Of a DNA stretch of 64,000 nt, positions 39,921 to 47,373 are shown one piece after another. The notes beneath the pieces are model-generated. The model searched no databases. It was not told where the DNA came from and saw only the letters and a list, made by a program, of their open reading frames with translations. Both the position numbers and the translations under genes were made by a program. Source of the stretch: Candidatus Nanopelagicus limnes (GTDB lineage Bacteria > Actinomycetota > Actinomycetes > Nanopelagicales > Nanopelagicaceae); NCBI RefSeq assembly GCF_002287885.2, contig NZ_CP016768.2:1116001-1180000 (forward strand). Direction: 5' to 3'. Within the stretch, counting starts at the first letter, position 1; the number at the start of each line of letters is the position of its first letter.

Positions 39921-41563
39921 GTGATGGCCCGTTAATTGTTCAAAGTGATAAAACACTTTTACTAGATATTGATCATATTCTCTCCGATGAATGTCGAAGA
40001 TCAATTGCATCATTTGCAGAGCTTGAAAAATCTCCAGAACATATTCATACATACCGATTAACACCTCTTGGGCTTTGGAATGCCAGAGCATCTGGCCATG
40101 ATGCTGAAGAGGTAATTGATATATTAATTAAGTACTCACGTTATGCGGTTCCGCATGCCTTACTAGTTGATATTGCCGAGACCATGTCTCGATATGGTCG
40201 CCTACGCCTTGAAGCCCATCCTGTTCATGGATTAATTCTGGTTTCAAATGATGCCGCAGTATTAAAAGAGGTAACGCGCGGTAAGAAGGTTGCGCCGATG
40301 TTGGGCAAACAATTAGATGATGAAACAATTGTTGTTCACCCAGGACAACGTGGCTTTTTAAAACAAGCATTACTTAAATTAGGTTGGCCAGCGGAGGATT
40401 TTGCGGGTTATGTTGATGGTGAGCATCATGAGATTTCATTGCGACAAGATGGTTGGAAGATTCGTAAGTATCAGGAGTTAGCTGCTGAAGGATTTTGGCA
40501 TGGTGGCTCAGGTGTTGTAGTTCTGCCTTGCGGTGCTGGAAAAACAATTGTTGGCGCAGCTGCTATGGCGCATGCAAAGGCAACTACTTTGATTTTAGTA
40601 ACTAACACAGTTGCTGCCCGTCAATGGCGAGATGAGTTATTGCGCAGAACAGATTTAAATGAAGATGATATTGGTGAATACAGTGGCGCTAAGAAAGAAA
40701 TTCGCCCAGTAACTATCGCGACCTATCAAGTTATGACTACCCGTAAAAAGGGTGTTTACGCCCACCTTGATCTATTTGATGCAATTGACTGGGGATTAAT
40801 TATTTACGATGAGGTTCACTTACTGCCTGCGCCAATCTTTAGATTTACCGCTGATATTCAATCCAGACGGCGCTTGGGACTAACTGCAACATTAGTTCGA
40901 GAAGATGGCATGGAGGGTGAGGTCTTCTCATTAATCGGCCCAAAAAGATTTGATGTGCCATGGAAAGAGATTGAAGCTCAAGGTTATATCGCCCCAGCAG
41001 ATTGTGTTGAGGTGAGAATTACATTAACCGATGCAGAGCGTCTAAATTACGCAACTGCAGAGCAAGAAGATCGTTATCGTTTTTGTTCAACTTCACAAAC
41101 TAAAAAAGCGGTTGCAGTAGCTTTAGCTAAACAACATGCAAATGATCAAGTTTTAGTAATCGGCCAATACATAGATCAGTTAGATCAATTATCAGAGGCC
41201 TTGGGAGTTCCAGTAATAAAAGGTGATACCCCAATTAAAGAGCGTGAAAGACTTTATGCGTTGTTTCGAAGTGGTGAACTTAAATGTTTAGTTGTATCAA
41301 AGGTAGCTAATTTTTCAATTGACTTACCGGAAGCAACTATCGCAATTCAAGTCTCTGGCACCTTTGGCTCTCGCCAAGAAGAGGCACAAAGATTGGGAAG
41401 AATTTTAAGGCCTAAAGCAGATGGACGTGGCGCTAGATTTTATTCACTTGTTGCACGTGACACTATTGATCAAGATTTTGCGCAAAATCGTCAACGATTC
41501 CTAGCTGAACAAGGTTATGCGTACCGAATTATTGATGCAGATGAGATTTTAAATAAAAGTTAA
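39917..41563 (+). CDS. XPB-type DNA repair helicase
   Basis: 548-residue superfamily 2 helicase of the XPB/ERCC3 family. An N-terminal domain (about 1–170) like the damage-recognition part of archaeal and mycobacterial XPB precedes the motor. Motor motifs: Q-like IRKYQ, Walker A LPCGAGKT (about 203–210), DEVH (298–301), GLTATLVRED (about 321–330), and QEEAQRLGRILRPK (motif VI). RED after TAT is the XPB-specific loop. It unwinds DNA 3' to 5' in characterised homologues. Overlaps the M20 gene by four bases and the convergent glutaredoxin gene by four bases. Confidence 0.93.
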   Translation: MSDGPLIVQSDKTLLLDIDHILSDECRRSIASFAELEKSPEHIHTYRLTPLGLWNARASGHDAEEVIDILIKYSRYAVPHALLVDIAETMSRYGRLRLEAHPVHGLILVSNDAAVLKEVTRGKKVAPMLGKQLDDETIVVHPGQRGFLKQALLKLGWPAEDFAGYVDGEHHEISLRQDGWKIRKYQELAAEGFWHGGSGVVVLPCGAGKTIVGAAAMAHAKATTLILVTNTVAARQWRDELLRRTDLNEDDIGEYSGAKKEIRPVTIATYQVMTTRKKGVYAHLDLFDAIDWGLIIYDEVHLLPAPIFRFTADIQSRRRLGLTATLVREDGMEGEVFSLIGPKRFDVPWKEIEAQGYIAPADCVEVRITLTDAERLNYATAEQEDRYRFCSTSQTKKAVAVALAKQHANDQVLVIGQYIDQLDQLSEALGVPVIKGDTPIKERERLYALFRSGELKCLVVSKVANFSIDLPEATIAIQVSGTFGSRQEEAQRLGRILRPKADGRGARFYSLVARDTIDQDFAQNRQRFLAEQGYAYRIIDADEILNKS

Positions 41564-41796
41564 GCCTTTACTGCTTTTGTAAACCGCTCTAAATCTACTC
41601 GCCAATAATCATGAACTTTATCTTCAATGAATATTACTGGTACCTGTTCTCCATACTCCTCTTGCAATTTAAGATCATCATCAATTAATTTAATATCTAA
41701 TTCAAACTTTAACTCACTCATTGTGGATTTAATTCGATCAATGGCGATTTCACATAAGTGGCAACCTGTGCGAGAGTAAACGGTAACTTTTTTCAT
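41560..41796 (-). CDS. Glutaredoxin-like thiol protein
   Basis: 78 residues in a thioredoxin fold of the short glutaredoxin family (DUF836-like). The redox pair is SRTGCHLC (C12 and C15) near the N-terminus, and the cis-proline is in EQVPVIFIE. ATG 41796 is chosen; the frame continues to a TTG at 41805. Partner unknown. It ends against the XPB gene and is divergent from the secreted protease. Confidence 0.85.
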   Translation of the reverse strand: MKKVTVYSRTGCHLCEIAIDRIKSTMSELKFELDIKLIDDDLKLQEEYGEQVPVIFIEDKVHDYWRVDLERFTKAVKA

Positions 41797-41886
41797 AACT
41801 ACCAACTAAAACTTTGGGAATGGGTATGAAGCATCGCTTTGGTAATGCCTTTTTGCTTAAATATTGCTGATAGATCTGCAACTGGC

Positions 41887-44277
41887 ATGGAACAATCATC
41901 TCAGACTGTTAGCCTTGCCCCTGTGCGCTTGCAATCAATTTTTACCTCAACCTTTCTCTTTACCTCGCTATTAATCGCGCCAATATCAATTCCAAACTCA
42001 ACTGCTTTAGGAATCAAGGTTGCACCAGCAAATACAGGTTTTATTTATGCCAGCGGTAAAAGCACATCAATTCAATCAACCCCTCGCCTGCCATCAGCCA
42101 ATCTTGAGAAGAAAAGTAATTTCCTAATCAACTTTAATACCGTCCCATCTTTTGCTAGAGCATCAATTCAAACTGCTGTAGACGTTTGGGCTGAAAACTT
42201 TTCATCTAGTGTGCCAGTTAATGTAAATGTTAAATGGGGAAGTTCTTCAAGTTATGGAGTTCTAGCATCAGCTAGTTCTAAAAATAACTTTTCAAATTTC
42301 ACAGGCGCTCCCGATAAAACACTTTATTACGCCTCTGCCTTAGCTAATGCTTTGGCCGGAAAAGATTTAGATCCAACTAACCCTGAAATTGAAATTTCAA
42401 TTACATCTAGTGCGCCTTGGTATTACGGAACTGATGGCAAATGTCCACCAAGAAGTTATGACTTAGTTTCTGTGATTCTTCACGAAATGGGTCATGGGCT
42501 CGGATTTATTTCCGGAAGTTACTATGACGTATTTTCTGGTTACGGCCGAATTGATCAACCAACTCCTTTTGATGCATACGCCCAACTTCCAGATGGAAGA
42601 CGATTGTCAGATATGCCATCACCATCTCTTGAAACTGGAAAAGCCATGACAACTGATTTAGTGTGGTCAGGTCAAAATGCAGTGAAAGCAAACGGTGGAA
42701 TTAAGCCAAAACTTTATACGCCAACAACCTATGAGCCTGGATCTTCAGTTGCACATCTAGATGAAAGAACTTTTTCGCAAACAGGTGAAAATGCAGTAAT
42801 GACGCCTAACTTAGATGCCGGTGAAGTATTTCATCTTCCAGGTTCTTTATTGTTAGCCCTGTTTGAGGATCTAAGGCAAAAGCCACCAGCTGGTATTGCT
42901 TCTGGTACGCCACAACCACCGCAAAATGTAAAAGCTTTAATTAGCGATCGCAGCGCAATAATTCAATTTGATCCACCAGTAAATTATCGTTTGGCTCAAG
43001 TTTCTAACTATGAAATTAAGAATATTCAAACTGGTGAATTAATTAATGCGACTGAAAGCCCAGTTATCTTCAAGGGCTTAAAAAACGGGGTTAAATACAC
43101 TTTCTCAGTTTCTGCAACAAATTCATTGGGAACATCAAATGCCGTAAATTCAAATTCGATCATTCCAGAGGCTGCCTGGAAAAGCACAACTGTTGATGGC
43201 GCCTCCGATGCGAAATATCTTGCAACAGCTACTTATGCTGGAAAACCAGTAATCGCCTACAGCGATAGCAAGAATGGAGATATCAAGCTTGCCACTTTCT
43301 CCAATAATAAATGGGGAATCAAAACAATTGATGGTAACTCGACTGCATTTGGTAGAACTACAAATGATGTCTCAGGCTATGTATCAATTTGTACATCCGT
43401 TACGGGCAAAACAAATTACTTACATCTTTTTTATGCTGATTTAAAAGATAAAGATCTTAGATATGCAGTTTACGATGGCAAGAGTTGGTATTACGAAATT
43501 GTTGATGGTGATGCACCAGCTATTCAAGATTACAAAGAATTTCCTAGAAAACGTGGCGGATCTGACGTGAGTGTTTCAAGTGCTTGTGCTGTTACAAGTG
43601 CGGGTATCCAAGTGTTTTATCGTGATGAGTCTCAAGGAATTTTATTGGGAGCAGTTAAAGACAAGCTCGATTGGCGTTATGAAATTGTTGATGGTGATAA
43701 AGATACCGAGGATAGAACCACGGGCGATGTTGCATTCCATTTAAAGTCAGTAACAGTAGGCAAGAAAATTCATCTAATTTACGATTCCGTTCGTGGTTTT
43801 GATATGGATCGAAACGTCACTAGAAGTGACATGAGATATGCAACTAGAAGTAGCGCTTTTGTTGAAGACTGGAGTTATAAAACCTTGGATGTTCCAGGCA
43901 ATGGTATTTCAGTTGCAGGATTTGATGTCGGTATTTCTAATGGTGCTAAAGGAGTAAATGTTGGTTGGTTTACAGGAAGTGGTGCATCATTTCCTAACCC
44001 GAATCAGATTAGATACCAGGTATTGGGTGCTAATACATTTACTGATGTAACCACCTCTGAGTATGGAATTCCTAATTCACCACTAACCATTGATGACAAA
44101 ACAATCATGTTTGGATGTCAATTAAGACTTTGTGCTTTGAATAGATCTAATGGCTCAGTTGATTTAATCTCTAGCGCAACTGTTCAATCTGGATCTTCTA
44201 GTAGCTGGATAACTTTAAATAAAATCAGATACGCCGTTGCTGGCGTATCTGGGAAATTAACTCTGCTTAAACCTTAA
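41887..44277 (+). CDS. Secreted zinc metalloprotease with Fn3 and propeller-like repeats
   Basis: About 796 residues from ATG 41887; the frame is open from 41839 (TTG) with ATG 41845 between, so the start is unsure. A hydrophobic signal (LQSIFTSTFLFTSLLIAP) suggests export. The protease domain has ILHEMGHGLGF with zinc ligands H199 and H203 and catalytic E200; the third ligand is not evident, as serine stands where metzincins have His/Asp. Residues about 337–425 form one fibronectin type III domain (PPQNVKALISDRSAIIQFDPP…). The rest is a run of about 70-residue units, each with a W-x-x-x-x-(V/L)DG-type end (YYEIVDGD, RYEIVDGD), like beta-propeller blades. It may cut or bind polymers outside the cell. 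Target unknown. Confidence 0.75.
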   Translation: MEQSSQTVSLAPVRLQSIFTSTFLFTSLLIAPISIPNSTALGIKVAPANTGFIYASGKSTSIQSTPRLPSANLEKKSNFLINFNTVPSFARASIQTAVDVWAENFSSSVPVNVNVKWGSSSSYGVLASASSKNNFSNFTGAPDKTLYYASALANALAGKDLDPTNPEIEISITSSAPWYYGTDGKCPPRSYDLVSVILHEMGHGLGFISGSYYDVFSGYGRIDQPTPFDAYAQLPDGRRLSDMPSPSLETGKAMTTDLVWSGQNAVKANGGIKPKLYTPTTYEPGSSVAHLDERTFSQTGENAVMTPNLDAGEVFHLPGSLLLALFEDLRQKPPAGIASGTPQPPQNVKALISDRSAIIQFDPPVNYRLAQVSNYEIKNIQTGELINATESPVIFKGLKNGVKYTFSVSATNSLGTSNAVNSNSIIPEAAWKSTTVDGASDAKYLATATYAGKPVIAYSDSKNGDIKLATFSNNKWGIKTIDGNSTAFGRTTNDVSGYVSICTSVTGKTNYLHLFYADLKDKDLRYAVYDGKSWYYEIVDGDAPAIQDYKEFPRKRGGSDVSVSSACAVTSAGIQVFYRDESQGILLGAVKDKLDWRYEIVDGDKDTEDRTTGDVAFHLKSVTVGKKIHLIYDSVRGFDMDRNVTRSDMRYATRSSAFVEDWSYKTLDVPGNGISVAGFDVGISNGAKGVNVGWFTGSGASFPNPNQIRYQVLGANTFTDVTTSEYGIPNSPLTIDDKTIMFGCQLRLCALNRSNGSVDLISSATVQSGSSSSWITLNKIRYAVAGVSGKLTLLKP
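44217..44251 (-). terminator. Intrinsic terminator of bS22, inside the protease gene
   Basis: On the minus strand a perfect 10-base-pair stem (CAGATACGCC / GGCGTATCTG) with a six-base loop is followed by ATTTTATTT. It lies 36 bases after the bS22 stop. The same bases encode IRYAVAGVS near the C-terminus of the convergent protease, so the terminator is built into coding sequence. Confidence 0.75.
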
Positions 44278-44286
44278 GCCAGGCTA

Positions 44287-44385
44287 TTACTTAGCGTTAC
44301 GGCGTTGAATTCTGGTCTTTTTAAGAAGTTTCTTATGCTTCTTCTTAGCCATTCGCTTACGACGCTTCTTAATTACTGAACCCAT
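44287..44385 (-). CDS. Small ribosomal protein bS22 (AURKAIP1/COX24 domain)
   Basis: A 32-residue, very basic protein (start [20 protein letters not shown]) that is almost identical in pattern to mycobacterial bS22, a 33-residue protein seen near the decoding region of the 30S subunit. The second half is [19 protein letters not shown] lies four bases before the ATG. It is too short for most gene finders. It is transcribed leftward after the secreted protein gene, with its own TAGTAT-like -10 in the 38-base gap, and ends in the strong terminator described above. Confidence 0.93.
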
Positions 44386-44423: not shown

Positions 44424-45647
44424 CTAGTTAACGACTACTAAACCAAAACTTACACCCGAATCGGTGATTACAACTGTTCCTATTTCATTATTTGAGGTGA
44501 TTGCAACTGCCGGGGCAGCTAATGTGTAAGCAGACAAGAGTTCACCTTTCTTGCCTAATTCCAGCAGTACTGCAGTAGAACTCTTTGGCTTCCAAGCAGT
44601 TATATTCTTAATCGCACCAGCTGAAACAAAAGTTGCCCATGAGTTCTTGCTCGCAGTTGCTAGCGCAGTGGATTTTGAAAGATACCTGACATTCCATACG
44701 GGCTTGTTAAGAGCAGAAAACTTAGTTACAGCTGCCTCAGTTTTATTGGAGTAACTCACTTTGCCTGCTTGTAATAATCCTGAATCTATCGAACTCCAGT
44801 TTCTTGTTGTGCTCTTTAAAGTAGCTCTTGCAACCTGTTGAAGTGCTCCTGTTGATGAAATCTCTAAGGTCACAGCATCTGCCTTGCTCAGTGGTTTCAC
44901 TTTCATTAGTAGCTCACCACTTGTTCCAACAGCAGTTATCGTGCCATCAGAATTAATGATTGCATCATTGAGTGAAGTGCTTTTGCTACCTACTTTAATG
45001 ATTGGCGAGAAGGTTCCAGATTTTGTAGCTGAAGTAGAAAAGCCTGAAACTAGATTCTTCTCATAAAGATTTCCGACGACCAGTAAATTACTTCCTGAGA
45101 TAAGAATTTTCTTGGGATTTACTATATTTTCTGATAAAAACTCAAATGAATTTAGTAAGTTTCCAGTATTACTTACCTGCCAAATCTTTATCCGCTTAAG
45201 CGGGGTTGCAGTTTGTTGCCGTGGATCAATAATCACATTGTCGGGGTTTAGTACTTTTGCTGGTGTTGGTGATGTAGTAGCTGTTACAGGTGAAGATGAT
45301 GCACCAAGCACCCAGATACTGCCATCGTTATCAATTGCAGCTGCAGTAGCTATTTCATCACTTGCTCCCCCTAGCCGCAAGTTCCACATCGGGGCGCCAA
45401 TAGATGAGTAGCTGGTAATAAAACCATCGCTAAGCCCGCCTAACGCACCATTAATCCAAGTAGAGCTAGGTGATTCAGTGGTTCCAACTAACAAAATACT
45501 TACTGGTGTAAGCAAAACATCACTTACTTGATCTGATTTTGTGTAAGGCAATTCAATTAATGATTTAGTCACTTTCATTGTTGCCGCATTCACTGGATAA
45601 GGCAAAGATGCAACAACTAATATGAATAGAGCAAAGATTTTCCTCAA
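44424..45647 (-). CDS. Secreted protein of unknown function
   Basis: 407 residues. The N-terminus MRKIFALFILVVASLPYPVNA is a clear signal peptide with an A-x-A-like cleavage site. The mature part is rich in Ser, Thr and Ala and contains loosely repeated strands of the form D-G-S/T-I-x-(V/A)-(L/V)-G (DNDGSIWVLGAS, NSDGTITAVGTS, SILLVGTTES), suggesting a beta-propeller. No catalytic motif is seen and no family is recognised. Start is TTG 45647, with AGGAG before it; it overlaps the proC stop by four bases, so an exported protein is translationally coupled to proline synthesis. Confidence 0.7.
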   Translation of the reverse strand: MRKIFALFILVVASLPYPVNAATMKVTKSLIELPYTKSDQVSDVLLTPVSILLVGTTESPSSTWINGALGGLSDGFITSYSSIGAPMWNLRLGGASDEIATAAAIDNDGSIWVLGASSSPVTATTSPTPAKVLNPDNVIIDPRQQTATPLKRIKIWQVSNTGNLLNSFEFLSENIVNPKKILISGSNLLVVGNLYEKNLVSGFSTSATKSGTFSPIIKVGSKSTSLNDAIINSDGTITAVGTSGELLMKVKPLSKADAVTLEISSTGALQQVARATLKSTTRNWSSIDSGLLQAGKVSYSNKTEAAVTKFSALNKPVWNVRYLSKSTALATASKNSWATFVSAGAIKNITAWKPKSSTAVLLELGKKGELLSAYTLAAPAVAITSNNEIGTVVITDSGVSFGLVVVN

Positions 45648-46512: not shown

Positions 46513-47373
46513 ATGGCTACGAAAAAAAGAGTGAATTCAAAGTTTTCTAAGAATGAGGTAGCTCCTAATTTTGCGCGAGATTGGGTTGAGTTTGAAAACC
46601 CAGCAAATCCTGAGGAAATATTCAAGTGTGATTTAACTTGGCTAACCTCATACTGGCAATGTATTTACGGAAATGGTTGCTGTGGAATTGATGGCGATAA
46701 ACCAGATGCTGGTTGTTGTTCAGATGGTGCTTATTACACCGGCAAAGAAGATGAAGATCGAGTTTTAAAAGCTGCTAAGAAATTAACTAAGGCGCAATGG
46801 CAATTTTATGACCAAGCACGACCAAAGAAATCTGGCGGCAAATTACAAATTTCTGAGATCGGTTTAGATAAGGATCGCAAGACTAGAAAAGTTAAAGACT
46901 CTTGTATCTTTTTAAATCGTGTTGGTTATGAAGCACCTGGCTACTCTGGATCATTTGGTTGCGTGCTACATCATTTAGCGGTTAAAGATCAGGTTCACTT
47001 TGTGGAGACCAAGCCAGATATTTGTTGGCAATTGCCACTACGCAGATCATGGGAAACCCGTGAAATTGGTGATGAAGAAATTACGGTAGTAGTAATTGGT
47101 GAGTACACAAGAAATGCTTGGGGTGAAGGTGGTGCTGATTTTGATTGGTATTGCACCAGTAACTCAGAGGCTCATATTGGAAGAGATCCTGTTTACAAAT
47201 CAAGCAAGGTTGAGTTACTAACCATGATGGGTCCAAAAGGTTATGCAGAGTTAGAAAAATTATGTAACAGCCGAATGGCTGCAATTTCAGCAGCGCGCAA
47301 GGCCCAGAAAAAGCGTGAACTTCCACTCTTTGTGATCCATCCTGCGACTAAGGCTGCACAAGAAAGCAGATAG
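46513..47373 (+). CDS. Cysteine-rich protein of unknown function
   Basis: 286 residues with eleven cysteines: C39, C50, C56, C57, C68, C69, C131, C150, C171, C214 and C251. The N-terminal group includes two CC pairs (GNGCCGID, AGCCSDG), and the later ones sit in DSCIFLN, GSFGCVLHHLA and DICWQLPL. The general order C…CC…C-x-(F/L)-L…GC-x-(L/I)-H…C-W/R-x-x-P recalls DUF3109/YkgJ-type metal-binding proteins, but I cannot assign it with confidence. No signal or membrane segment. A lysine-rich start may bind nucleic acid. It precedes radA by 26 bases on the same strand. Confidence 0.6.
   Translation: MATKKRVNSKFSKNEVAPNFARDWVEFENPANPEEIFKCDLTWLTSYWQCIYGNGCCGIDGDKPDAGCCSDGAYYTGKEDEDRVLKAAKKLTKAQWQFYDQARPKKSGGKLQISEIGLDKDRKTRKVKDSCIFLNRVGYEAPGYSGSFGCVLHHLAVKDQVHFVETKPDICWQLPLRRSWETREIGDEEITVVVIGEYTRNAWGEGGADFDWYCTSNSEAHIGRDPVYKSSKVELLTMMGPKGYAELEKLCNSRMAAISAARKAQKKRELPLFVIHPATKAAQESR

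Follow-up and report, generated by a model that had tools for sequence, protein, structure and literature searches.

What kind of enzyme is an exported, zincin-like protein in the streamlined cells of Candidatus Nanopelagicus limnes, and what would it do for them? The question is raised by a gene in a 64,000-nucleotide stretch of the genome (termed the window), whose product had been read as an exported zincin of unclear protease family, with an HEMGHGLGF motif lacking the third metal ligand of metzincins, followed by a fibronectin type III (Fn3) domain and propeller-like repeats. We take the organism to be an acI-type freshwater actinobacterium. Judged by titles and abstract starts, the papers listed in our searches of the open literature do not deal with this gene.

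The window protein gave a single match, at E ≤ 1, in its own genome (1.24 Mb, single contig). Its closest named relative is from a single-cell genome, actinobacterium SCGC AAA027-J17 (81% identical), and another matching locus is titled Nanopelagicaceae. The gene and its 5′ features are as follows.

41923-44277, + strand: exported metzincin-like protease with an Fn3 domain and a seven-bladed propeller, 784 aa, GTG start
41910-41915, + strand: TAGCCT, a hexamer resembling a -10 element, 7 nt upstream of the GTG, putatively of a leaderless promoter
41923-42006, + strand: signal peptide, residues 1-28, probably cleaved by signal peptidase I after NSTA (by eye)
42007-42108, + strand: N-terminal segment, residues 29-62, poorly conserved, mostly of low pLDDT and without Cys

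The open frame of the original prediction is real (41839/41887-44277, + strand), whereas its start at 41887 and length of 796 aa did not stand. Two relatives (L003 and L036) have an in-frame TAG upstream of the position matching GTG 41923, and [A/G]TGCG is aligned at this codon in all 17 rows of an upstream alignment (the window and 16 chosen relatives); on this comparison, translation almost certainly begins at GTG 41923 rather than at ATG 41887, giving 784 aa. A TGTTA block lies just before the start in 11/11 same-genus rows of this alignment, and in the window the block holds TAGCCT. The pattern TANNNT occurs 5-8 nt ahead of 10 of the 55 gene starts in the window (41923 included; one of the 55 is without upstream sequence), compared with ~5% at random places, which suggests leaderless transcription at 41923 and at other gene starts in the window. 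Several of the genes preceded by TANNNT are the first genes of units.

Inspection of the alignment by eye bore out the hydrophobic N-terminus and the export previously claimed, as in most rows that reach the N-terminus an Arg leads into a hydrophobic stretch and then an A-x-A-like site. The first of the five Cys residues (174, 490, 555, 732, and 737) is residue 174, so a lipobox is absent, and no C-terminal anchor was apparent by eye in the window protein. Residues 29-62 could possibly form a prosegment.

The catalytic part of the protein comprises the following elements.

42109-42897, + strand: metzincin-like catalytic domain, residues 63-325, from the domain model, MMP-type structural matches, and a partial match to NF038122
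42481-42504, + strand: HEMGHGLG, with His187, Glu188, His191, and Gly194, all four invariant in 33 rows
42505-42753, + strand: 83-residue stretch from Gly194 to the third His, 82-92 residues long in 33/33 rows
42754-42756, + strand: His278 (SSVAHLDE), proposed third zinc ligand, in 33/33 rows
42799-42801, + strand: Met293 (NAVMTP), proposed Met-turn, in 33/33 rows

These counts refer to a protease-domain alignment (A5) of 33 rows from three phyla: the window, 18 further Nanopelagicaceae, 13 Bacteroidota, and 1 Desulfobacteraceae. The HEXXHXXG active-site helix is present throughout, H187, E188, H191, H278, and M293 are invariant, and 12-14 residues separate the third His from the Met in every row. 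Apart from these, the window's domain has a single His, H304, which 32 of the 33 rows keep. At the classical third-ligand place, the 11th of the motif, the Ser previously reported was confirmed in 27/27 rows of the full-length alignment (A2), that of the window among them; across the 33 A5 rows this place varies among Ser, Gly, Ala, Asp, and His. The contiguous HEXXHXXGXXH/D signature is thus absent from the window, with His at its last position in 1/33 rows (L011) and Asp in 2/33 (L014 and L016). The His-bearing row, a Cytophagales homologue (L011:3354-4118), has a His at both the classical and the displaced place. In eight further actinobacterial domains (L099-L106), His and Met were seen by eye at matching places. 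The third ligand reported as lacking is therefore better sought in the invariant His278, 83 residues past the motif Gly, for which these alignments argue.

We modeled the catalytic domain alone (residues 60-329) with AlphaFold2, obtaining a pLDDT of 93.8 and a pTM of 0.91. Foldseek gave no match for this domain at E ≤ 0.001, the best being MMP-10 (E 0.025). When Foldseek's own candidates were re-examined with VIA-align, the best 50 PDB rows listed were all MMP-type catalytic domains (Z 10.6-9.2), including MMP-11 (Z 10.6 with 130 aligned, rmsd 2.7) and karilysin (Z 9.9 with 134 aligned, rmsd 3.5); the aligned range of the model runs from 5 to ~260, beyond the Met at model position 234. Leishmanolysin does not appear in these 50 rows, to which we attach no weight. 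Among PDB sequences, profile A1 retrieved only MMP-16 (E 0.0035, over ~30 residues), with leishmanolysin (1lml) at no better than E 1, over the HExxH stretch.

The profile searches of the zincin domain had a mixed outcome. The only peptidase profile clearly matching the window protein is NF038122 ('metallo_LGF', NCBIfam), which covers residues 133-300, spans both His motifs, and has an E of 6e-15, yet at 56 bits falls short of its curated cut-off (80); unlike the NF038122 family, the window protein also carries the Fn3 and propeller tail. This profile matches 38/38 A3 members at E ≤ 1, and our search of the open literature found nothing on it. The matrixin profile PF00413 likewise stays below its cut-off (13.5 bits versus 24), and is the commonest weak match among Pfam peptidase profiles (22/38 A3 members at E ≤ 1, best 4.6e-5). 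Fn3 is the only Pfam family above cut-off on the window protein.

Because of the displaced invariant His and Met and the matrix-metalloproteinase-like predicted fold, we place the protein in the metzincin group, where its family had been called unclear. Both alignments and model indicate a metzincin-like protein with a displaced third ligand, its chain extended by an insert that separates the HExxHxxG helix from the third His. The invariant HExxH, His, and Met, the MMP-like model, and the signal peptide recognized by eye also support the earlier description as an exported zincin. The predicted catalytic core resembles that of the MMPs and karilysin (M10); unlike in M10, the third His is displaced and PF00413 is below cut-off. 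A long insert between the HExxHxxG Gly and the third His, followed by a Met-turn, is also found in leishmanolysin and invadolysin (MEROPS M8). In the portion of the source consulted, the insert of Leishmania leishmanolysin is given as 62 residues and 19 Cys are reported for GP63 (PMC11957388). The window protein has an insert of 83 residues and 5 rather than 19 Cys, and its N-terminal segment is without Cys, so a cysteine-rich domain and a cysteine switch find no counterpart here. We considered M8 membership and rejected it: the M8 profile PF01457 gave no match at E ≤ 10 either to the window protein or in its own genome (the control matched 2/14 genomes, 0 over cut-off), and the window protein is for this reason not filed as M8. 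The 25 Pfam families listed for the A3 members do not include PF01457. Other Actinomycetia proteins combining the protease with Fn3 (L104-L106) score 239-253 bits to the A2 profile across these two domains and keep the His and Met by eye; their tails differ, in an 868-aa protein or in >2000 aa of repeats reading like Fn3, and their listed matches stop before the propeller.

The C-terminal half contains three further features.

42916-43137, + strand: fibronectin type III domain, residues 332-405 (PF00041, E 7e-8, 33 bits versus a cut-off of 25)
43174-44274, + strand: C-terminal beta-propeller, residues 418-784, with seven sheets in the model and propeller structural matches
43609-43737, + strand: conserved propeller stretch in the A2 alignment, residues 563-605 (blade 3 and the start of blade 4)

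The claimed Fn3 domain was thus recovered, as one PF00041 domain over cut-off. The propeller, for which a blade count by structure prediction had been proposed, also appears in the full-length model (pLDDT 83.3, pTM 0.70), where we counted by hand seven beta-sheets with strands within residues 433-470, 487-528, 549-590, 602-656, 664-709, 717-750, and 760-783, the last of them apparently closed, in this model, by strand 420-425. The repeats agree in part with their first description: YEIVDGD does occur in two copies (residues 524-530 and 586-592), whereas a unit of ~70 residues does not fit, since the only four VDG/IDG strings in the C-terminal half, at 424, 469, 527, and 589, are spaced by 45, 58, and 62. 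The VIA-align rows listed are mostly propellers (Z 27.2-23.9, aligned over ~417-784), with the WD40 protein Ski8 (Z 27.2) at the top, level with lectins from Photorhabdus (Z 27.0-26.3; PLL3 27.0, PHL 26.6), and Foldseek ranks ROS1/Sevenless first. Given these equal scores and that first rank, the lectin likeness is unspecific and a lectin label was rejected. C490, C555, C732, and C737 are invariant in the 27 A2 rows, which fits an oxidizing, extracellular location. Conservation among the blades is highest in blade 3 (546-598), where 19 of 53 columns are invariant; the mean top-residue frequency in A2 is 0.79 for blade 3, 0.69 for the protease, and 0.64 for the whole propeller.

Matches to the window protein were found in 187/201 genomes of the family (own genome included), in 98/99 of the good ones and in 17/17 genera, with one match in most positive genomes. 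The profile search of the order sample gave 147/151 genomes and 104/104 good ones, all 151 being members of this one family. Of the class-sample genomes, 131/296 match the full-length profile at E ≤ 1e-5; among the matches listed, full-length ones come only from the 28 same-family genomes, the others covering the protease or, mostly, Fn3 only, and the protease domain is found in G221, G349, G358, and some genomes of family f4. The propeller profile matches 11/148 class-sample genomes, all Nanopelagicaceae, and none of the other 137; the listing names 20 of these, each from another family. In the phylum sample, the protease domain occurs in 3/246 genomes, one being the own genome and the other two belonging to family f4. 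A locus titled as a Bifidobacterium breve MAG (L027) carries a Nanopelagicaceae-type locus, and its label looks wrong. Toward its base, the tree of the protease shows long branches and unresolved forks, with the 19 Nanopelagicaceae rows on one side of a branch (96/92); their attachment point is unsure, which counts against a simple descent story.

Among the 14 negative family genomes, 11 are in genus g17. A true loss in this genus was considered and rejected, as the helicase neighbor is also missing in 9 of the 14 and the other five (G056, G197, G104, G163, and G173) have contigs that stop at the expected position or short of it. In G104, the only negative of good quality, the contig edge reads by eye as the N-terminus of the protease, and tblastn with the window protein gave no match at E ≤ 1. 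For these 14 genomes, neither loss nor presence of the gene is shown.

The gene lies in a conserved neighborhood, of which the adjoining genes in the window are listed here.

41560-41805, - strand: glutaredoxin-like DUF836 protein (PF05768, 62.7 bits), at the same place in 11/11 named loci
44287-44385, - strand: 32-aa very basic protein, matched in 6/11 loci with a wrong-frame query, which shows conserved DNA only
44424-45647, - strand: 407-aa exported protein, with similar sequence in 10/11 loci (26-74% identity; L004 ends before it)

The order helicase, glutaredoxin-like gene, protease is kept in 11/11 named loci. Downstream of the protease, proC and a gene at 46513-47373 (+ strand; g46513) follow in 9/11 loci and radA in 8, the remaining loci ending earlier; L010 and L028 have ~2 kb extra ahead of radA. 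We presume the names proC, radA, and XPB-type helicase from the look of the sequences, and the 32-aa protein is presumably bS22-like (ribosomal protein bS22), by its motif. The product of g46513 (286 aa, 60-88% identity in 9/11 loci) had no Pfam match at E 0.1, and in the g17 contigs examined this gene lies between the helicase and the protease. The 407-aa protein had no Pfam match over cut-off. No transporter was found by Pfam among the four neighbors scanned, and no division or wall gene was seen adjoining the protease.

Whole-protein dN/dS is 0.059-0.094 in five pairs, with 0.045-0.110 as the range of all domain and pair values; silent sites approach saturation in four of these pairs, and domain borders are approximate for rows starting upstream. 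The least saturated pair (L003/L036, dS 0.31) has a dN/dS of 0.094. These comparisons point to strong purifying selection on the gene, whose locus is conserved; together with its presence in 98/99 good family genomes, the dN/dS values support the important role suggested for the protein.

As the protein is exported, intact, and near-universal, it is most likely an active secreted endopeptidase, an activity that we infer. With moderate confidence, we propose a Sec-exported, metzincin-type zinc endopeptidase, cell-associated or close by, which degrades extracellular proteins to importable peptides. His187, His191, and His278 would bind zinc, Glu188 would act as the general base, and Met293 would form the Met-turn beneath the metal. 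The Fn3 domain may be a spacer carrying the seven-bladed propeller special to Nanopelagicaceae, through which the enzyme could attach to its substrate or to the cell envelope. The enzyme would most likely remain cell-associated or close by, and the peptides cut from extracellular proteins would be imported, in a feeding role. Such a role is favored by the expressed oligopeptide transporters and peptide use described for acI in the part of the source consulted (PMC5574706). The absence of transporters among the four neighbors scanned tells against the proposal, as do the weak Foldseek and PDB-profile matches of the catalytic domain. The own genome has one SBP_bac_5 match, which is no special sign, since 11/14 control genomes match too; it has no subtilisin-family match, whereas the control matched 7/14.

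The same active enzyme might instead serve envelope maintenance, trimming or shedding the cell's own surface proteins or acting in wall turnover or division, with the propeller binding a partner on its own cell; this is quite possible, if not the outcome we expect. Near-universality, with one match in most positive genomes, fits housekeeping as well as feeding, and combined with a propeller found only in Nanopelagicaceae it fits maintenance almost as well as feeding, making peptide scavenging and envelope maintenance close rivals. The fixed neighborhood also reads as housekeeping genes in all 11 named loci, as far as they reach. The stronger conservation of blade 3 than of the protease speaks for this reading, but the propeller as a whole is less conserved; no division or wall gene adjoins the protease, and scavenging enzymes can be universal too.

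Two further readings fare worse. That a zincin without a third ligand has Ser or water in its stead could be read from the Ser held throughout A2, yet it becomes highly improbable when the 11th place varies over the 33 rows while the downstream His is invariant. We also think it quite unlikely that a dead protease acts as an adhesin or lectin through its propeller: the model does align well to PLL3 and PHL, but Ski8 and ROS1/Sevenless make this likeness unspecific, none of the five catalytic residues varies, and the propeller is constrained to much the same degree as the protease. The active endopeptidase with a feeding role remains our preferred reading.

A bacterial metzincin with a displaced third His can, as here, be mistaken for a ligand-deficient one. 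Rather speculatively, a distinct bacterial metzincin family, with 82-92 residues before the third His, may have acquired a unique propeller by fusion in the Nanopelagicaceae ancestor and may now be an indispensable surface enzyme throughout the family. If true, this would be a lineage-defining extracellular catalyst in streamlined cells thought to live on the uptake of small molecules. The propeller could serve as a marker, and an exported protease kept almost throughout the family, together with a domain special to the lineage, offers a concrete, testable element of the cell-surface biology of these bacteria.
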